Below are positions 8,531 to 37,035 of a DNA stretch of 39,895 nucleotides, in pieces; within the stretch, counting starts at the first letter, position 1; each line of letters opens with the position of its first letter. Origin of the DNA: Candidatus Kuenenia stuttgartensis (GTDB lineage Bacteria; Planctomycetota; Planctomycetia; Pirellulales; UBA1268); NCBI GenBank assembly GCA_945891385.1, contig CAMDDJ010000004.1, positions 67,932 through 107,826 of the forward strand. The letters are read 5' to 3'. The notes below the pieces were generated by a model that worked only from the letters and a program-made list of their open reading frames with translations, was not told the DNA's origin and ran no database searches. A program made the translations under genes and the position numbers.

Positions 8531-10288
8531 TCAGCTACGGTTCCGCAGCTTTTTGAGATCGGCGAGGCTGCGGGTATTGGCGACGTCGCCGGCCTCGAGG
8601 CCCGCGCGGCGGGCTTGGAGAATGCCGCATCGCATCACGTCGAGGCCCTTTGTCGAGTGGGCATCGGTGGAGATCACGAGCTTAACGCCGGCAGCCTTGG
8701 CGGCCGCAGCGTGGCGATCGTCGAGGTCGAGCCGCCAAGGATTGGCGTTGATCTCCAGAAATGTGCCAGTGCGGGCCGCGGCCTCGATCACCGCCTCGAT
8801 ATCGACGTCGTACGCGGGCCGGCGGTTGATCAGCCGGCCGGTCGGATGCCCGATCACCGCGACGTGTGGATTCTCGATCGCCTCGAGGATCCTGGCGGTG
8901 ATCCGGTCGCGGGGCTGGTTCTGGCCGTAGTGGAGGCTGGCCACGACCCAGTCTGCGCGGGAAAGAATGGTGTCGGGCAGGTCGAGACCGCCCTTCTCAA
9001 GCATGTCCACCTCGATCCCCTTGAGAACGACGATCTGCGGCGGCCCATCGTCGGCAAGCGCGGCATTGAGGCGGTCGATTTCATCCCATTGCTTGAGCAA
9101 CCGGCGTTCGTCGAGTCCTCGCGCCATCGTGACGCGCTGGCCATGGTCGGTGATCGCCACGTAGGCGAGACCTCGGTCGATCGCGGCCCGCACCATGTCC
9201 GCCAGCGTGTCCTCGCCATCGGTGGCGGTGGTGTGCATGTGGAGATCGCCGCGAATATCGGCTAGGGTGATCAATTCTGGCAGTCGGCCTTGCTCCGCGA
9301 GAAGGAACTCGTCGCGGCCCTCGCGAAGCTCGGGCGGAATCCAGGGGAGTCCAACCGCCGCGTAGACATCGGCCTCCTCGCTGCCCCCAAGGGATGGGCC
9401 GGCGGCGGCTCCTTCGGCCGTCACGGCGTAGACACCGTACTCGTTGATCGAGAGGCCCTGATCGCGGGCACGGCCGCGGAGTCGGACGTTGTGTTCCTTC
9501 GAACCCGTGAAGTACTGGAGCGCGGCCCCAAACGACTCGCCTGGCACCACCCGCAGGTCGACCTGCACTCCCCGCGGTCCGCGAATGCTCGTCTTCGTCT
9601 CACCCCGGAGCAGGACGTCGGCCGTTTCGGACCAGGCCACGAGCCGGTCCATCACGGCCGCAGGATCTCCGCTCTCCACCAGGAGATCGAGGTCGCCGAC
9701 GGTCTCCCGACCCCGTCGGAGGCTGCCGGCCGACTCGATTCGGCGGACGGCTGGCGAGGCGGCCAGCCAGGCCATGAGTTGCGAGGCAATCGCATCGGCC
9801 TCGTTCCAGAGCAGTCGGGCCCGATCTGGGTCACGGGCGAAGGCGAGGTTTTCCAGGATCGCGGCTTCGGTCTTGGGTCCGAAACCCTTGATGTCGCGAA
9901 CCTTGCCTGCCCGGCAGGCCGCCTCGAGCGCGGCGAGCGAATCAATCCCGAGGGCGTCGACCAAGCTTTTGACCTTCTTGGGGCCGAGTCCTGGCACCCT
10001 CATCAGGTCGAAGACCACCGCGGGGACTTCTCGCTCAAGCTCCTCGACGAGTGGGAGCCGGCCGGTGTCGAGCAGTTGGCCGATCTTGGCGGCGAGGTCG
10101 GCCCCCACGCCATCGAGGTCGGTGAGTGACCGCTCAGGATCGGTACGAACCTTGTCGAGCGACTCGACGAGGCCGGCGATGGTGCGGGCAGCAGTCCGGT
10201 AGGCCCGCACCCGGAATACATTGTCGCCGCGGTATTCCAGGAGATCGGCGACGTGCTCGAACGCGGTGGCAATGTCGGCGTTGGTCAC
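8531..10288 (-). CDS. polX: DNA polymerase X family with C-terminal PHP domain
   Basis: A 585-aa bacterial family X DNA polymerase, a repair polymerase expected to fill short gaps in base-excision repair. The start chosen is GTG at 10288, with GGGAG 6 bases upstream; the open frame extends to 10510 but overlaps the upstream gene. An N-terminal 8-kDa-like region with helix-hairpin-helix motifs (VPGLGPKK near residue 98, IKGFGPKT near 133) precedes the palm. Palm metal ligands are Asp199 and Asp201 in GDLDLL and Asp244 in VQVDLRVV. The PHP phosphoesterase domain fills the C-terminal ~240 residues, with HMH at 350-352 plus ITDHG, GIEVDM, GHPTGR and STDAHS, so its metal ligands look intact. Length is close to the usual ~570 aa. 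It lies 52 bp downstream of the secreted-protein gene on the same strand. Confidence 0.95.
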   Translation of the reverse strand: MTNADIATAFEHVADLLEYRGDNVFRVRAYRTAARTIAGLVESLDKVRTDPERSLTDLDGVGADLAAKIGQLLDTGRLPLVEELEREVPAVVFDLMRVPGLGPKKVKSLVDALGIDSLAALEAACRAGKVRDIKGFGPKTEAAILENLAFARDPDRARLLWNEADAIASQLMAWLAASPAVRRIESAGSLRRGRETVGDLDLLVESGDPAAVMDRLVAWSETADVLLRGETKTSIRGPRGVQVDLRVVPGESFGAALQYFTGSKEHNVRLRGRARDQGLSINEYGVYAVTAEGAAAGPSLGGSEEADVYAAVGLPWIPPELREGRDEFLLAEQGRLPELITLADIRGDLHMHTTATDGEDTLADMVRAAIDRGLAYVAITDHGQRVTMARGLDERRLLKQWDEIDRLNAALADDGPPQIVVLKGIEVDMLEKGGLDLPDTILSRADWVVASLHYGQNQPRDRITARILEAIENPHVAVIGHPTGRLINRRPAYDVDIEAVIEAAARTGTFLEINANPWRLDLDDRHAAAAKAAGVKLVISTDAHSTKGLDVMRCGILQARRAGLEAGDVANTRSLADLKKLRNRS

Positions 10289-10340
10289 GCGTCGCTCCCG
10301 GGGTGGGTCGGGTTCCTCCCGGCTCCCGCGGGAAGCCGGC

Positions 10341-11441
10341 TCATCGTTGGCCGCGCCAGGCCGGCAGGGCTGCTGTCGGATATTGAACCGCACGTGGAGC
10401 AGGCAGGGAAGGCTGCCAGGACGTGGTGTGACTGGTCGGGGCGAGCAGACGCGGAAAGGCGCCGGTGGCGGCTCCAGGGCCTGTGCCCGGCAGTGTGGGC
10501 ATGCCGCCACGGCCCGCCTCGTCCTGGCCTGCCGCGGGATGCGGGGTGCCGGGTCCCGGATTCGTCCCGTTCGTCCCCGGCGTTGCGGTTCCGAGCCCCA
10601 GCGGCTGTCCGTTGGAGCCGGCTGGTCCGGACGGCTGGACTGACCGCGGCATCTCCGGAATCGGCTTGAGCGACGGAGCGGGGGAGAATGCGGGAGGCTG
10701 CGTCGGCTGGAGTTGTGTTGGCTGTTGTGCTGACGAAGCGGTTACGCCGGACTGCGGTACGATCGTCGCCGTCGGCGCGGGCTGCGAATACTGGTAGGTC
10801 GTGGCCGGCGGCATGGATGCCGGCGGGAGGGCCGGGGCAGCCACGCCGGGAAGCGGTTGCCGCGACACGTCTGCGCCGGCTGCACCCCAGGCCTGCGGCG
10901 TCGTCTGCACGGCGGAAAACGGGCTGGCCGCAGGGGCCATGGCCGGGGGTGGCACCGGCGAAGCTCCGGGGTAACCCTGCGGAGCGTAGCCAGGTTGCAT
11001 CTGCACATACTTTGTGGTGGTGACCGCCCGATACTGGGTTACCGGCACGCTGACTGGTTGCTGGACATACTGCGTGACCGGCTCCATGCATTCCATCGCG
11101 CACCCCGTGCAGGGATCGATCTCGCAGGAGGGCTTGTAGGTGGTGACTGGTACGCACTTGTATTCGGTACGGTAGGTCGTTTCGGGTACGTAGCTCGTTT
11201 GCTGGACGGGTACCATGACCGGTGGAGGCGGGGCTGGCACTGCGACCGGTGCGATGGGGGCAACGATGGGTGCTGCAACCGGGGCGACCGGGGCGACGGC
11301 ATAGACAGGCGGCTTCTTGCAGCCCGCCAAGCACCCGGAGAACAGGCCATCCAGGCAGCACTGGGCTTCGGCAGACCGCATATCGGCCAGACAGCAGCAT
11401 CCGGCTGTCAGCAGTCCAAGAGCCATCCGACGCACGTTCAT
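10341..11441 (-). CDS. Secreted Pro/Thr/Tyr-rich repeat protein, planctomycete type
   Basis: A 366-aa protein of unknown function. ATG at 11441 has GAGGAG 6 bases upstream. Residues 1-27 form a signal peptide ending in SAEA before QCC; a Cys cluster within the hydrophobic part (LLTAGCCC) leaves lipidation possible. The mature N-terminus has clustered cysteines. A central section (~70-170) follows with repeated short motifs of the type VPxTxY (YVPETTY, VPVTTYKP, PVTQYVQQ, PVTQYRAV). The remaining half is Pro/Ala/Gln/Gly-rich and low in complexity. Such VPxTTY-containing exported proteins are common in planctomycetes and are presumed cell-surface or cell-wall components; that role is inference. 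polX lies 52 bp downstream on the same strand. Confidence 0.8.
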   Translation of the reverse strand: MNVRRMALGLLTAGCCCLADMRSAEAQCCLDGLFSGCLAGCKKPPVYAVAPVAPVAAPIVAPIAPVAVPAPPPPVMVPVQQTSYVPETTYRTEYKCVPVTTYKPSCEIDPCTGCAMECMEPVTQYVQQPVSVPVTQYRAVTTTKYVQMQPGYAPQGYPGASPVPPPAMAPAASPFSAVQTTPQAWGAAGADVSRQPLPGVAAPALPPASMPPATTYQYSQPAPTATIVPQSGVTASSAQQPTQLQPTQPPAFSPAPSLKPIPEMPRSVQPSGPAGSNGQPLGLGTATPGTNGTNPGPGTPHPAAGQDEAGRGGMPTLPGTGPGAATGAFPRLLAPTSHTTSWQPSLPAPRAVQYPTAALPAWRGQR

Positions 11442-11608: not shown

Positions 11609-12238
11609 TTACGGCTGGCGGGCGCGATACTCGAATCGGTCGTAGAGGTCCGAGAGCGACTCGCGGAGATTGCCACCGTGGCGAGCGTAGGTCTCCGTGA
11701 TATCGGCCGGTCCGATCAGGCCACCGTGATCGGGCAGTGCGGCCACGATCGCTTCGAGGAGCGGCAGTGAGGCCATCGTCATCACCGTCATGCCAACGCC
11801 GGCCGACCGATGGCTCGTCACCACCAGGCGACAGCCGATCAGCCGAGCCAGGAGTCGCACGCCGGCCCGGCCCGCCCAGCCGAGGCCGTCCCAGCCATCG
11901 AGGCACACAGTCGAGCCTCGCCGGGCCTTTCCGACTCGCCAGAGACACGCCCAGAGGTCTCGGCCACTCCGGACCTGAATGAGTCCAGCGAGCCGGCGGT
12001 CGGCTGCCAGTTCCGCAGCAATAGCCACCAGAAGTGTCGACTTCCCTGTTCCGTGCGGACCGACGATCGTCGCGCTGCCTCCAGCAGCCCCGATCGAGGC
12101 GACCAGGGCTGGCAGATCACGCCGCTCGGCAGCAGCCGTCAGGGGTCGAATTCTGCCCGGCTGGACATGACGGGTGGCGAAGGGATTGGCGATGTGGTGT
12201 GGAAGCGGGGCCGCGGTGGGCGGAGCGACGGTGTTCAT
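11609..12238 (-). CDS. Small P-loop ATPase, last gene of the alpha-CTD/DUF3592 operon
   Basis: A 209-aa ATPase not assigned to a named family. Walker A is GPHGTGKST at about residues 58-66. A Walker B-like strand, STVCLDGWDGL, lies near 105-115, and LVVTSHR near 135 resembles a sensor/switch strand. An N-terminal tail with NPFATRHVQPG precedes the nucleotide fold. The C-terminal ~50 residues (ITETYARHGGNLRESLSDLYDRFEY) look helical and could contact a partner. There are no membrane segments. ATG at 12238 overlaps the preceding gene's stop (ATGA) and is served by GGGGAAGG. Tight overlap suggests it energises or switches a process involving the two upstream proteins; that is inference. DnaA-like or STAND-type relatives cannot be excluded. 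Confidence 0.85.
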   Translation of the reverse strand: MNTVAPPTAAPLPHHIANPFATRHVQPGRIRPLTAAAERRDLPALVASIGAAGGSATIVGPHGTGKSTLLVAIAAELAADRRLAGLIQVRSGRDLWACLWRVGKARRGSTVCLDGWDGLGWAGRAGVRLLARLIGCRLVVTSHRSAGVGMTVMTMASLPLLEAIVAALPDHGGLIGPADITETYARHGGNLRESLSDLYDRFEYRARQP

Positions 12239-12657
12239 GAAACCTTCCCCGAGATCGCAGCAGGAATCCTGCCCAGATCGAAGACATGCTCCGAGACGAA
12301 ATCCCGTCCGCTTGCGAAAAACAGCCGAATACGGACGCACCAACGGATCTTTACGATGAGTCCTTCGTACGACAGGGGACTGCGGGGCAAGCCCACGGCG
12401 AAGCGGCCCTCCGGGGCCGCACCAGAGACCGCAGCGCGATCGGTCAATCGCTCGAAAAAATGGATTTCCAGATCCTCTTCTCCCTTACCCTCCGTGTACC
12501 AGAGAACCGAACGTTCGATGGCCCGTAGGCTACTGCCCGGAGGAAGCGAGATCTGGTAGCGGATGTCGATCGGTTCGAGCGTCTCGTAGATGCGGTCGGC
12601 CTTACAGAAAAATACCGTCACGACGGGGAGCCCCCGGCTTGGCTCGCCAGCGGTCAT
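12235..12657 (-). CDS. Small arrestin-like beta-sandwich protein (unknown function)
   Basis: A 140-aa cytosolic protein without a signal peptide. ATG at 12657 follows AGGAGG by 7 bases. Its pattern resembles one arrestin-type beta-sandwich domain: an opening segment PIDIRYQISLPPG, a central SVLWYTEGKGEEDLEIHFF, then a strand-rich end with LPRSPLSYEGLIVKIRWCVRI. That last segment, in which a Leu-Pro is followed by SYxG and alternating hydrophobic residues, is what makes me think of arrestin-like proteins; the call is from pattern only. It overlaps both neighbours by ATGA, between the DUF3592 membrane protein (whose C-terminal domain looks similar) and the ATPase. It is probably a soluble adaptor for one of them. 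Confidence 0.75.
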   Translation of the reverse strand: MTAGEPSRGLPVVTVFFCKADRIYETLEPIDIRYQISLPPGSSLRAIERSVLWYTEGKGEEDLEIHFFERLTDRAAVSGAAPEGRFAVGLPRSPLSYEGLIVKIRWCVRIRLFFASGRDFVSEHVFDLGRIPAAISGKVS

Positions 12658-13961
12658 GGGGTGGCCTCCTGGTCGGACGGTCCGAGCCGCGGGGCCGCGG
12701 GGTAGATCAGCACCGGAAATGAGCGGATGAAGGTTGGCCAGTGGGCGGGGCGACCGCGGATCACCACTCGCCATGTCAGGCTATTGTGCTCGGAGTTGAA
12801 GGAGTGCATGGCAGTGGCTGGAACCTGGAATTCCCCGCGTCCTTCGAAACGCGTCCCCGGAGCCAACTGAACATCCTGCCACGAATTGAGTGATGTCCGC
12901 CAGACCACGACTCGCTCGGTGCGGGTATCGGTACCCTGGCGAAACGTCGCCTGCTCTTCGAGTTCGACGGCCATCTCGAGGCTCGTGAACACCCCAGCAC
13001 CTCCCTGGCCAAGGAGCACCTCGTATCGGCCGCCCGGAAGGAGCGGGTGATCCGAGATCTCGACCTGCGTGGTGCCGACAGCGGTGGCGAGTATCAGCGC
13101 CCGGATGAAGACCACGATCCCGGCGACACCGACAGCGAGGAACGGCACCAGAATCGCGAGGAGCAGCCAGTCAATCCGTCCCCCCAGGAGATCGAAGCCG
13201 GCGTTGACGGCAAGCACGACCAGCACCGCGTTCCAGAGCAGCGCGAACAGCCCGAATCCCAATAAGGTCCAACTCTCACCGCTCTCGATCGGGAGCCGAA
13301 AAGCGAGGATCGTTCCCGGCGAATTCACCAGGTCTTCGCACGAGGGCACTCCGGGGCAGTCCTCCAGGCCCGGCTTTCTGCCGGTTGGAAGCGGTCGGTT
13401 GCCGAGGGCGGCCTGCCGCTCCTCCGACTTCCCCCACGCGGCGAACGCCCGAGCGACGCCAGATCCTCCGAAGGCGATCAAAGCCCCGGGCAGCAGCAGG
13501 GTGAGAGCCCACATCCACCAGTTGTAGCCCCGCTCCAACACGACCACGCCCGGTGCTTGCGGATCGTACCAGCAAACCAATTCACTTCCGAGTGAGATGG
13601 CAGCCAATGGCTTGGCTGCCGCGGACCGGTTCGCCGCGGGGTCGCCCCGAACCGCCCAGGCTTCCTCCGGTCCGGTCGTCGTCGGATACTGCAACCGAAT
13701 GCATGGCTGCCAAGTCGACTCCGTCGAGCCGGAAACGGCCCGTCGCGCGAGCCCCTTGCCGACCACGGTCGCCCGCGCTTCGAGAAAGTGATGGTTGATC
13801 CGCCACTCAGGCACGGCCGATCCGGTCAGGAGCATCGCCGCGAACACGAGTCCGGCAGCGAGCAGGATCGAGTGGAACAGGGCATCTCCGATCGAGCCCC
13901 AGACCTCCGCTCCGGTCCGGCGATCACCCCGTTTCTTCGCGAAGAATCGCGGCAACCTCAC
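12654..13961 (-). CDS. DUF3592-type membrane protein with C-terminal arrestin-like domain
   Basis: A 435-aa membrane protein. GTG at 13961 has CAGGAG 7 bases upstream. Predicted membrane spans are about 27-48, 146-170, 231-253 and 264-293. The loop between spans 1 and 2 has the DUF3592 pattern: a strand starting ATVVGKG, a WQPCIRLQYPTTTG section, then LGSELVCWYDPQAPG just before the second span. After the last span, residues ~297-421 form a strand-rich domain ending in HSFNSEHNSLTWRVVIRG and FPVLIYP, which resembles an arrestin-type domain. The function of this architecture is unknown to me. Its stop overlaps the next start by ATGA, and the alpha-CTD-like gene lies 42 bp upstream on the same strand. 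Confidence 0.85.
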   Translation of the reverse strand: MRLPRFFAKKRGDRRTGAEVWGSIGDALFHSILLAAGLVFAAMLLTGSAVPEWRINHHFLEARATVVGKGLARRAVSGSTESTWQPCIRLQYPTTTGPEEAWAVRGDPAANRSAAAKPLAAISLGSELVCWYDPQAPGVVVLERGYNWWMWALTLLLPGALIAFGGSGVARAFAAWGKSEERQAALGNRPLPTGRKPGLEDCPGVPSCEDLVNSPGTILAFRLPIESGESWTLLGFGLFALLWNAVLVVLAVNAGFDLLGGRIDWLLLAILVPFLAVGVAGIVVFIRALILATAVGTTQVEISDHPLLPGGRYEVLLGQGGAGVFTSLEMAVELEEQATFRQGTDTRTERVVVWRTSLNSWQDVQLAPGTRFEGRGEFQVPATAMHSFNSEHNSLTWRVVIRGRPAHWPTFIRSFPVLIYPAAPRLGPSDQEATP

Positions 13962-14003
13962 AAGCCAGCTCCTGGCGGCACTCCGAGACCGACCGGAGCG
14001 GCG

Positions 14004-14297
14004 CTACGACGCCTGCGATACCGGCTGTCGCGGCGGCTCTTCCTCCACCCCGGGAGATCGGAAAAACCCGATCTTTTCCAGGGCCTTGAACACCTCCTCG
14101 AGCGTCTTCTCGCCGAAGTTCGAGATCGAGAGCAGGTCAGCCCGGGTGCAGTTCAACAGATCGTGGACCGTAAAGATGCCCCGCTCCTCCAGGCAGTTCG
14201 TAGTTCGGACGGAAAGTCCGATCTCAGCCGTGCTCATTTCGAGTTTCTCGGCCATTTCGTCTGATTGGGTCAGGTCTTTGTATGGAATTCTCGGCAT
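14004..14297 (-). CDS. Stand-alone RNA polymerase alpha C-terminal-domain-like protein
   Basis: A 97-aa protein. ATG at 14297 has a GGGAGGGAA element upstream. Residues ~22-78 match the alpha-CTD fold of RpoA: EIGLSVRTTNCLEERGIFTV, then DLLNC, then LLSISNFGEKTLEEVFKAL. These are the two helix-hairpin-helix elements that in RpoA bind UP-element DNA and activators. No alpha N-terminal domain is present, so this is not RpoA itself. The C-terminal ~18 residues are a charged, Pro-containing tail. It could act as a transcription co-factor, a decoy alpha-CTD or simply a DNA-binding HhH protein. It opens the four-gene minus-strand cluster and is divergent from the UvrD gene. Confidence 0.85.
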   Translation of the reverse strand: MPRIPYKDLTQSDEMAEKLEMSTAEIGLSVRTTNCLEERGIFTVHDLLNCTRADLLSISNFGEKTLEEVFKALEKIGFFRSPGVEEEPPRQPVSQAS

Positions 14298-14467: not shown

Positions 14468-16888
14468 TTGGTGTGCGGAAACCTCGTGCTTTTCCCCTCC
14501 CTCGACACCCTCAACGATTCGCAGCGGGCTGCGGCGACCCACGTCGAGGGACCGCTCTTGGTGCTAGCAGGCCCAGGCAGCGGCAAGACGAGGGTGGTGA
14601 CGCATCGGATTGCCCATCTGATCGCCTCTGGTGTGCGGCCGGCGTCGATCGTGGCGCTCACGTTCACCAACAAGGCGGCCGATGAGATGCGCCGCCGGGT
14701 CGGGGAACTCGTGGGGCCGCAGCCCGTCGAGATGGGAACGTTTCATCGATTCGCCGCCCGCCTCCTGCGGCGACACGCCCGACAGGTCGGGCTCACGGGT
14801 GATTATTCGATCTTCGATCCTGATGATTCAGCCGGTGTGCTCAAGCGGGCGGCGAAGAGCCTTGGGCTGTCACTCACGCACACGCCTGTCGATCGGGTGG
14901 CGGGCGTGATCTCACGCGCGAAAAACGATCTGCTCACCCCAGAGTCGTTCGAAGCCCGGTGGGGCAAACCGGTGGATGACGTGGCTCGGCGGATCTGGCC
15001 GGTCTACCAGGAAATGCTCCTCCGGGCGAACGCGGTTGATTTCGACGATCTGCTTGTGCATGTCGCGCGGCTTCTGGCCGACGATCCCGTGCTCCGCGCA
15101 ACGCTCGATGACCGGTATCGATTCATCCTGGTGGATGAATACCAAGACACCAACGCGGTTCAATACGGCATCCTCCGTGGGCTCTCGCTCGATCACCCGA
15201 ATCTTGCGGTGACCGGCGACCCTGACCAGGCGATTTATGGCTGGCGGGGTGCGAGCATCCGCAACATTCTGGAATTTGAGCGGGACTATCCGGCGGCCAC
15301 CGTGGTTACGCTCGAGCAGAACTACCGGAGCACGGCCAATATCCTCGGCACGGCCGATCGGTTGATCGCGCACAACTCCCGTCGCAAGCCGAAGCGGCTG
15401 GTGACCGATGCGCAGCCGGGCAAGCCCGTGCGGATCGTGCTCGATGCTTCGGGCCAGGATGAAGCCGCGCGGATCGCGACCGAGATCACAGCTGATGTGA
15501 CCGCCGGCCGGCGGCAGCTGCGGGACTTCGCCATCCTGTTTCGCACGGCCGCCCTGTCGCGGTCGCTGGAGATCGCCCTGCGAACGGCCGGTGTGCCGTA
15601 TCAACTCGTCCGTGGGCTTGAGTTCTTTAAGCGACGTGAGATTCGTGATGTGGTGGCCTGGCTGCGGCTACTCCGCAATCCACGCGACGACGAGGCCTTT
15701 CTCCGAGTGGTCAACGTGCCGACCCGCGGTATTGGCCGGCAATCACTCGACCGACTGGCTGCCTGGGCGGATGACCAGCGGGTATGCCGGCTGGAGGCCG
15801 CGGCTGCCGCCGCCAGCATTCCGGGCTTGCCGAAGCGGGCCGCCTTGTCGCTGGCGGGATTTGCCGGCCTGCATGCAGCGATCAGCGAGACGGCCGGGCG
15901 GGAGTCGAGCGTGGCGACCCTTCTCGAAAGTGTGCTCGAGAAGACTGGCTACCGGCGAATGCTCGAGGATGAACTCGACGACGAGGAGGGGCAGGAGCGG
16001 CTGGCCAACGTCGAGGAACTCGTGACTGCTGCCCGCCAGCACGACGAGGCGTTTGCTGCCGATTCCGGCTCCTTTGCAGACGGCGGTGCCGAGGCCGACT
16101 CGCTGGGCAGTTTCCTCGAGACCACCGCGCTCGTGGCCGACGCCGACGCCTGGGATGCTGGAGCCGACCGAGTCGCCCTGATGACCTTCCATGCCGCCAA
16201 GGGGCTCGAATTTCCGGTGGTCTATCTCGTGGCGATGGAGGACGGGATCCTGCCCCACGAGCGGAGCATCGATCGGCCCGACCAACTCGAGGAGGAGCGG
16301 CGACTGGTGTTCGTGGGGATCACACGTGCTCGTGAAGAGGCTCATGCGAGTTCCGCCCGGATGCGGGATTATCGGGGAACCCGCCGGATTTCGGCGCCGA
16401 GCGTGTTTCTTGCCGAGATGACCGGAAGCGAGACGGTGGTCTGTGGCGAGGAGGCGCCGACCGCTGGTTCCCGACCCTCATTCGATCCCTTCGGTGACGC
16501 CGCCAGGGCGGCTGCCGGAGGGGGCTTCGACGAATACGCCCAAGACGTGTCTGAACAGCCCCGGCTCAAGGTGTTCCGTCCCGATGGGCTGGCCTTCGAG
16601 GGGGAGCAGTCGGACGAGTTCAAGGAGCGGCAGCCGACGGGCTCTCGGCCCGCGAAGCATGCCCCACGATTGGAGCGGGCCAGCGACCTGGCGGCGCGAT
16701 TGTCCGGTGCCATGCCGGCTCGCTGCCGGTTCACCCAAGGCCAAAGGGTTCGGCATGCAGAGTATGGCGAGGGCGTCCTGACGAAGATCACGGGCGTGGG
16801 TCCGAGGTCGCTGGGCACCGTCTGCTTCGACGGCCCAGCCGGCACCCGCAAGTTCGTCCTCGGCCACGGATCGCTCGAGCCGGCCTGA
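14468..16888 (+). CDS. UvrD/PcrA-type ATP-dependent DNA helicase
   Basis: A superfamily 1A 3'-5' DNA helicase for repair and replication restart, ~806 aa. Motifs in order: Q-motif LNDSQRAAATH; Walker A GPGSGKT near residue 35; ALTFTNKAADEM; DEYQDTN; GDPDQAIYGWRGAS; EQNYRS; LMTFHAAKGLEFPVVYL; and LVFVGITRAREEAH. After the helicase core, a ~120-residue linker leads to a C-terminal Tudor-like domain (residues ~755-806, containing GQRVRHAEYGEGVLTKI), typical of PcrA/UvrD. The start is uncertain: TTG at 14468, GTG at 14471 and GTG at 14486 are all possible, and none has a strong Shine-Dalgarno. I kept the longest. PcrA versus Rep/UvrD cannot be decided from motifs. Confidence 0.93.
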   Translation: MVCGNLVLFPSLDTLNDSQRAAATHVEGPLLVLAGPGSGKTRVVTHRIAHLIASGVRPASIVALTFTNKAADEMRRRVGELVGPQPVEMGTFHRFAARLLRRHARQVGLTGDYSIFDPDDSAGVLKRAAKSLGLSLTHTPVDRVAGVISRAKNDLLTPESFEARWGKPVDDVARRIWPVYQEMLLRANAVDFDDLLVHVARLLADDPVLRATLDDRYRFILVDEYQDTNAVQYGILRGLSLDHPNLAVTGDPDQAIYGWRGASIRNILEFERDYPAATVVTLEQNYRSTANILGTADRLIAHNSRRKPKRLVTDAQPGKPVRIVLDASGQDEAARIATEITADVTAGRRQLRDFAILFRTAALSRSLEIALRTAGVPYQLVRGLEFFKRREIRDVVAWLRLLRNPRDDEAFLRVVNVPTRGIGRQSLDRLAAWADDQRVCRLEAAAAAASIPGLPKRAALSLAGFAGLHAAISETAGRESSVATLLESVLEKTGYRRMLEDELDDEEGQERLANVEELVTAARQHDEAFAADSGSFADGGAEADSLGSFLETTALVADADAWDAGADRVALMTFHAAKGLEFPVVYLVAMEDGILPHERSIDRPDQLEEERRLVFVGITRAREEAHASSARMRDYRGTRRISAPSVFLAEMTGSETVVCGEEAPTAGSRPSFDPFGDAARAAAGGGFDEYAQDVSEQPRLKVFRPDGLAFEGEQSDEFKERQPTGSRPAKHAPRLERASDLAARLSGAMPARCRFTQGQRVRHAEYGEGVLTKITGVGPRSLGTVCFDGPAGTRKFVLGHGSLEPA

Positions 16889-36945: not shown

Positions 36946-37035
36946 GGAGAGGTGGCAGAGTGGTCGAATGCGCGTCTTTGCTAAAGACGTGACCGGTCAA
37001 AAGCTGGTCCGCGGGTTCGAATCCCGCCCTCTCCG
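36946..37035 (+). tRNA. tRNA-Ser (anticodon GCU)
   Basis: A complete class II tRNA. The acceptor stem GGAGAGG pairs perfectly with CCTCTCC, followed by G. The D arm is GCA...TGC. The anticodon stem-loop is CGTCT-TTGCTAA-AGACG, giving anticodon GCT (decodes AGC and AGU). The long variable arm has GACC/GGTC, and the T arm is GCGGG-TTCGAAT-CCCGC. The length is 90 nt, and CCA is not encoded. It lies 95 bp from the start of the divergent M28 peptidase gene. Confidence 0.97.

Follow-up and report, generated by a model that had tools for sequence, protein, structure and literature searches.

Arrestins are central adaptors in eukaryotic signalling and endocytosis, and their superfamily includes the alpha- and beta-arrestins, TXNIP and VPS26. 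The prokaryotic arrestins known to a 2008 survey were Spo0M, a family (PF07070) of bacteria and archaea that was assigned to the arrestin clan; in the parts of that survey consulted, planctomycetes go unmentioned and no species with solely single-domain arrestins is reported (PMC2515105). Spo0M has been described as interacting with cell-division proteins (PMC5325327), and the RavA-ViaA pair as an ATPase and adaptor that work at the inner membrane (PMC9489729). Here we describe a gene set found in a stretch of 39,895 nucleotides of Candidatus Kuenenia stuttgartensis (contig CAMDDJ010000004.1, positions 67,932 to 107,826; the whole stretch is hereafter called the window), which the GTDB lineage places in the order Pirellulales of the Planctomycetota. 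Three overlapping minus-strand genes encode a membrane protein (MP), a small protein with a predicted arrestin fold (ARR) and a P-loop ATPase (ATP protein). That these three form a real module, of this composition, is well supported, and we see roughly an even chance that they constitute a split arrestin that is tethered to the membrane and served by an ATPase of its own.

The likeness to the arrestin superfamily lies in the arrestin fold predicted for ARR and for MP residues 298-417, of N-lobe and C-lobe type respectively. However, the lobes here lie on two proteins, the C-lobe is fixed to a transmembrane (TM) hairpin and encoded first, the set includes an ATPase, and the system is bacterial. 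Spo0M is similar in structure, since the solved protein (5cl2) stands within the first six Foldseek matches of both the ARR and the MP model, and one relative with both lobes on a single chain scores 27.4 bits, above the cut-off of 23 for Spo0M. Nevertheless, neither MP nor ARR of the window matches the Pfam model PF07070, and the membrane tether, the split lobes and the ATPase set the module apart. RavA-ViaA and other pairs of a MoxR AAA+ protein and an adaptor offer the nearest working analogy, a bacterial ATPase with a dedicated adaptor, but Pfam gave no MoxR or VWA match in the window proteins and the adaptor here would be of arrestin fold. No published description of the MP-ARR-ATP set was found among the papers listed on bacterial arrestins, Spo0M, DUF3592 and planctomycetes (preprints and most subscription papers lay outside the scope). 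An initial annotation, made from the sequence alone, had called the locus undescribed-looking. We know of no bacterial counterpart of the whole system. Arrestins as such are already known; the split, membrane-tethered set with an ATPase appears to be a new form.

Gene layout and conservation of the module

The window belongs to a 3.77-Mb draft genome (G000). Its four minus-strand genes span exactly 11609-14297, with ATGA overlaps at both the MP/ARR and ARR/ATP junctions and a 42-bp gap between the alpha-CTD gene and the MP gene, so that the coordinates given initially were confirmed. The GTG start of MP is supported because its homologues begin M(V)RLPRFF... A scan for promoters and terminators gave no signal exceeding shuffles. 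The features are as follows.

12654..13961, minus strand: MP, membrane protein of 435 amino acids with a GTG start; TM1, DUF3592-like domain (predicted extracytoplasmic), TM2, linker (predicted cytoplasmic), TM3-TM4 and C-terminal arrestin-fold domain, probably of C-lobe type
13539..13784, minus strand: MP residues 60-141, a beta domain resembling DUF3592
13077..13280, minus strand: MP residues 228-295, the hairpin of TM3 and TM4 that forms the membrane unit preceding the C-lobe
12711..13070, minus strand: putative arrestin-fold C-lobe of MP, residues 298-417, from Foldseek and lobe profiles
12235..12657, minus strand: ARR, 140 amino acids, predicted single-domain arrestin fold of N-lobe type
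11609..12238, minus strand: ATP protein, 209 amino acids, P-loop ATPase, putatively AAA+-like, with invariant NPF, Walker A, D114, H143 and R192
12038..12061, minus strand: Walker A of the ATP protein, residues 60-67 (GPHGTGKS)
14004..14297, minus strand: stand-alone alpha-CTD protein, 97 amino acids, a neighbour judged to lie outside the module

We found MP matches in 90 of the 98 genomes of a genus-to-order sample (the window's own included), representing 19 of the 20 sampled families of the order. Given this near universality, the function of the module is probably of general use to these cells. The eight genomes without a match include one that is 51% complete and all four sampled genomes (G031, G039, G045 and G052) of a single genus of the window's family, g11, a natural loss available for comparison. 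Gene order was read with profiles at one locus per genome in 69 other MP-positive genomes of the order: ARR comes directly after MP in 66, and in 61 of these the ATP gene comes next. Two of the three loci without ARR after MP stop at a contig edge (L006 and L039); in the third, L050, ARR lies on another contig and the ATP gene is nearby on the opposite strand. Beyond the order we used a class sample of 297 and a phylum sample of 292 genomes, both with completeness of at least 85. ARR matches occurred in 39 genomes of the phylum sample, 21 of them outside the class; of 15 loci retrieved from these 21, 9 show the order MP, ARR, ATP. This order was also seen in 7 of 20 class or paralogue loci at the threshold used, these having been chosen to include unusual architectures. 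Gene order is kept across genera, families and classes, which supports the system that had been suspected. A locus on contig CAMCPF010000002.1 (L033), likewise titled Candidatus Kuenenia stuttgartiensis, has the gene order of the window's genus and an MP that is 66% identical; its title is probably wrong.

Genomes that have ARR mostly have the ATP protein as well, and those without ARR mostly lack it. With a strong ATP protein match defined as E<=1e-19, the genomes of the order within the class sample fall into 78 with both, 2 with ARR only, none with the ATP protein only and 7 with neither. In the two ARR-only genomes (G064 and G192) the ARR matches are weak, and G017, counted among the seven with neither, reflects a contig break, with MP cut at a contig end and an ATP fragment opening another contig. 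The rest of the class sample contains 16 genomes with both, 11 with ARR only, 1 with the ATP protein only (G353) and 182 with neither. Fisher tests gave p values of 6e-9 (order) and 5.5e-16 (rest of class), which are not true probabilities, the genomes being related and the genes linked within the order. In three genomes of one genus (G099, G119 and G344) the ATP gene lies elsewhere in the genome, away from MP-ARR, and yet is retained; in G330 it is on the opposite strand, some 2 kb away from MP. Second, paralogous clusters also occur in order genomes, where smaller MP paralogues, consisting of a TM segment or hairpin and a C-lobe, precede ARR-like and ATP-like genes (L105-L108). An ATPase whose presence largely follows that of the arrestin lobes provides a handle on how arrestins act in bacteria.

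Arrestin-fold domains, membrane topology and ATPase

The AlphaFold2 model of MP (predicted local distance difference test, pLDDT, 89.3) comprises helices at 19-58, 148-175, 228-259 and 265-295 and beta domains at 60-141 and 298-417. Foldseek matched residues 298-417 to the ARRDC3 N-lobe (4.5e-8, TM-score 0.65 by target), Spo0M (1.5e-7) and TXNIP. The ARR model (pLDDT 90.1) has as its best PDB matches the ARRDC3 N-lobe (2.6e-7), beta-arrestin 1, Spo0M and TXNIP, with VPS26C lower; 48 of the 50 listed PDB matches carry the name arrestin, ARRDC3, TXNIP/VDUP-1, Spo0M or VPS26C, and two (9mba) only 'transducer-bound GPCR'. On these models we place both ARR and MP 298-417 in the arrestin fold. A PDB sequence search with the ARR profile returned seven matches, all of arrestin fold, at E values of 0.49-1.3 that serve as a lead only, and Pfam Arrestin_N and Arrestin_C matched weakly (E<=1) in 11 and 13 of 56 ARR members. 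PF00339, scanned over 195 phylum genomes, had matches in 9 and in 0 of 14 controls, and misses the window's type. It had been proposed initially that MP and ARR end in similar arrestin-like regions: the arrestin fold is borne out by both models, but profile comparison shows no sequence similarity between the two, and they appear to be two different lobes. We also considered ARR and the MP lobe as duplicates of one another, and rejected this on the failure of their sequence profiles to match.

The alignments comprised 56 ARR rows (55 of 66 extracted proteins plus the window), 56 MP rows (55 of 69 plus the window) and 51 ATP protein rows (50 of 62 plus the window); close kin of a row already included, copies that were truncated or fused, and sequences with an internal stop were excluded. 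The N- and C-lobe types, which in the window lie on two proteins, are found on one chain in 14 relatives among the fetched loci. In four of these, from four different families, the C-lobe precedes the N-lobe (L063, L113, L116 and L144), and in ten, which we call type B, the N-lobe comes first (L117, L118, L119, L122, L135, L136, L138, L140, L141 and L142), each of the ten having its lobes separated by one or two hydrophobic segments; the chain above the Spo0M cut-off is of this type. Two profiles derived from the ten type-B chains, one from their N-lobes and one from their C-lobes, separated the two proteins: ARR preferred the N-lobe profile in 56/56 (median 41.0 against 0.25 bits) and the MP domain the C-lobe profile in 56/56 (45.3 against -1.6 bits), and the reverse test was concordant for all ten type-B chains. 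When type-B chains were scanned with Pfam, Arrestin_N was above its cut-off in 4/4 and Arrestin_C in 2/4, and this Pfam result is the independent part of the lobe evidence. These comparisons suggest that ARR is of N-lobe and the MP domain of C-lobe type, each window protein carrying a single lobe. What is split here over two genes, with one lobe fixed in the membrane, is thus joined in some relatives into chains that pass the Arrestin_N cut-off.

The remainder of MP is more variable. DUF3592 (PF12158), named in the initial annotation, matches MP residues 74-146 at 24.5 bits, just under the Pfam cut-off of 25.3, but 50 of the 56 aligned members match at E<=0.1, and two relatives exceed the cut-off, L133 with 117.3 bits and L130 with 41.3 bits. 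The MP relative L133:5658-7466 carries two tandem DUF3592 domains (5e-34). Conversely, 18 of the 98 genomes lack the DUF3592 region (about MP residues 50-130) and retain the remainder of MP, as counted where two matched MP pieces have too little DNA between them. No published function was found for DUF3592, which in this module is dispensable. Its loss and duplication, together with the small MP paralogues, lead us to a constant core of hairpin plus C-lobe, N-lobe and, usually, the ATPase. BK-channel entries with beta4 stand at ranks 27 and 32 of the MP Foldseek matches, and the Pfam CaKB model matches weakly in 6 of 56 MP members and in L133; we regard the TM-DUF3592-TM unit as similar in build to the beta subunits of BK channels, not as their kin. 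The MP N-terminus is a conserved stretch of net basic charge (median +7 over 25 residues, minimum +1, 56 members). Under the positive-inside rule basic segments face the cytoplasm, which suggests an N-terminus inside and would place the arrestin lobe in the cytoplasm together with ARR and the ATP protein.

The Walker A motif of the ATP protein confirms the P-loop ATPase recognised at the outset, and its Pfam matches are limited to generic P-loop families. Across the 51 aligned rows NPF, H62, G63, G65, K66, D114, H143 and R192 are invariant. The Walker B is not of the form hhhhDE: D114 (51/51) is followed by G (39) or S (12), with E (47) or D (4) at +3, giving DG[WYF]E in most members, whereas the four type-B ATPases found have DE[ATM]Q at the aligned place. 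R192 lies in a sensor-2-like GN(L/V)R motif, which may represent sensor 2, and no invariant or nearly invariant arginine was seen between H143 and R192 in the 51-row alignment. We read the protein as a putative AAA+-like ATPase.

Proposed mechanism and alternative explanations

We favour the split arrestin because of the gene order, the two folds, the lobe identities, the fusions in both directions and the co-occurrence of the ATP protein. In such a mechanism MP would be anchored by its four TM helices, with the arrestin C-lobe hung from the TM hairpin on what is probably the cytoplasmic side. ARR, as a soluble N-lobe, would dock on this C-lobe at the membrane and complete a bilobed arrestin, which may capture a client membrane protein by its cytoplasmic portion. 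The putatively AAA+-like ATP protein could then contact the adaptor, by analogy with RavA-ViaA, and drive loading, remodelling or release of the client, while the extracytoplasmic DUF3592 domain, in 0, 1 or 2 copies, might be an optional regulator or sensor. We infer both the client and the function from this arrangement. Possible, but on balance doubtful, is the wider proposal that Planctomycetota own an arrestin machinery that is bilobed, assembled at the membrane from lobes encoded by two genes in an order reversed from that of single-chain arrestins, and loaded or emptied by a dedicated ATPase. If true, it would be an ATP-driven membrane-protein cargo adaptor in a bacterial phylum with complex membranes.

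Several observations weigh against the split-arrestin reading. The ATP gene was not found beside MP-ARR in L042, L047, L055, L064 and L070, and in L042 the room for it is reduced to a few hundred bases ahead of the downstream gene P6, described below. It was also not found beside 6 of the 10 type-B fusions, nor beside two of the four C-lobe-N-lobe fusions (L113 and L116). The 11 class genomes outside the order carry ARR without a strong ATP protein match, and within the order co-occurrence is not independent of linkage because the genes are adjacent there. AAA+-type remodelling is weakened by the absence of the Walker B 'DE' and by an arginine finger that was not identified. On the arrestin side, the window's ARR is without any Pfam match, and Arrestin_N and Arrestin_C do not discriminate the lobes within the ARR alignment (A1). 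The lobe test is partly circular, because the type-B chains were found, and their lobes labelled, with the ARR and MP profiles. Comparison of the ARR and MP domain profiles gave no sequence similarity, which fits different lobes and is no proof of pairing.

A sensor or signalling module, in which DUF3592 perceives the state of the envelope, the arrestin pair reads it by conformation and the ATPase acts as a nucleotide switch that relays the signal with no client remodelled, seems to us rather unlikely. An extracytoplasmic domain that varies between 0 and 2 copies on a constant cytoplasmic core would suit it, as would the weak likeness of the TM-DUF3592-TM unit to the BK-channel beta subunits, which modulate a channel. 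However, the supposed sensor is the very part lost in those 18 genomes that keep the rest of MP, and no recurring kinase, cyclase or regulator gene was recognised beside the module among neighbours judged by clustering and first residues, without family searches. The planctomycete phylum is known for complex membranes, and VPS26, VPS26C and alpha-arrestins appear among the Foldseek and weak sequence matches, so that a cargo or coat role in the deep membrane invaginations, comparable to retromer/VPS26 or the alpha-arrestins, also deserves mention. We consider it improbable: 190 of the 297 class-sample genomes have no ARR match, so that this is not a membrane function general to planctomycetes, and no retromer-like or ubiquitin-like partner was recognised by eye near distant loci, where no dedicated search was made.

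The initial annotation had envisaged a membrane-associated signalling, trafficking or defence module, of which a conserved membrane-associated system with two predicted arrestin folds and an ATPase has held up and the defence part has not. A small ATPase beside proteins without an assigned function could mark an anti-phage or other defence operon. Yet PADLOC gives no family for MP or ARR and only generic P-loops for the ATP protein (the alpha-CTD protein weakly matches PglW), searches of 72,556 plasmids and of 50,697 phages gave no match to the window's ARR, and MP is not only widespread from genus to order but occupies a conserved genomic site in those family loci long enough to tell. A defence role is accordingly very unlikely, indeed close to negligible, and was rejected. 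Hardly more credible is one operon of four genes, in which the alpha-CTD protein regulates the module or belongs to it. In its favour, 28 of the 29 close-relative loci L003-L031 have the alpha-CTD gene no more than about 225 nt upstream of MP, as measured from alignment ends (in L026 it begins 434 nt upstream), and the gap in the window is 42 bp. Of 31 loci outside the family, by contrast, 4 have it within 300 nt upstream, 13 have it 0.6-4.5 kb upstream and 1 has it on the opposite strand; in the other 13, some with only a short stretch fetched, it was not found there. Each gene is also found without the other: five genomes of the order (G207, G257, G300, G315 and G361) have alpha-CTD and no ARR match, and two (G026 and G199) have ARR and no strong stand-alone alpha-CTD match, all being drafts in which a gap is possible. 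We therefore rejected the alpha-CTD protein as a component; the last three genes of the proposed operon stand as a module, the first is a mere neighbour, and the dedicated DNA- or polymerase-binding component suggested for it is not sustained.

Neighbouring genes

The alpha-CTD protein itself was correctly recognised, with a clear RNA_pol_A_CTD match (PF03118, 1.2e-19). Its gene usually adjoins a divergent UvrD gene, and in the window it (14004-14297, minus strand) diverges from 14468-16888 (plus strand), which we take to encode a UvrD-type helicase; the pair is often retained where it lies away from the module. Clustering of neighbours in 61 loci, phylum loci left aside, gave P6 in 28, alpha-CTD in 24, UvrD in 24, a mostly divergent PQQ-like gene in 19 and PolX in 13, all in order genomes. 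A further cluster recurs in L106, L118 and L120, all class or paralogue loci, and in one more locus. In 12 distant loci, with gene calls judged by first residues, no neighbour was common to all; a conserved neighbour that would name the pathway was thus obtained neither from clustering nor from these gene calls.

P6 (10341-11441, minus strand) lies downstream of the ATP gene and on the same strand in the 28 loci, found only in the order; its product is Cys/Pro/Ala-rich and secreted-looking by eye, and has no Pfam match. Further downstream is a gene (8531-10510, minus strand) for what is presumably a PolX-type DNA polymerase/PHP protein, the neighbour seen in 13 of the 61 loci. The sole Rfam match in the window at the gathering threshold was a tRNA gene elsewhere (36946-37035, plus strand; RF00005). 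In two other loci, L109 and L118, sulfatase-like genes, recognised by an N-terminal motif, lie close to the module.

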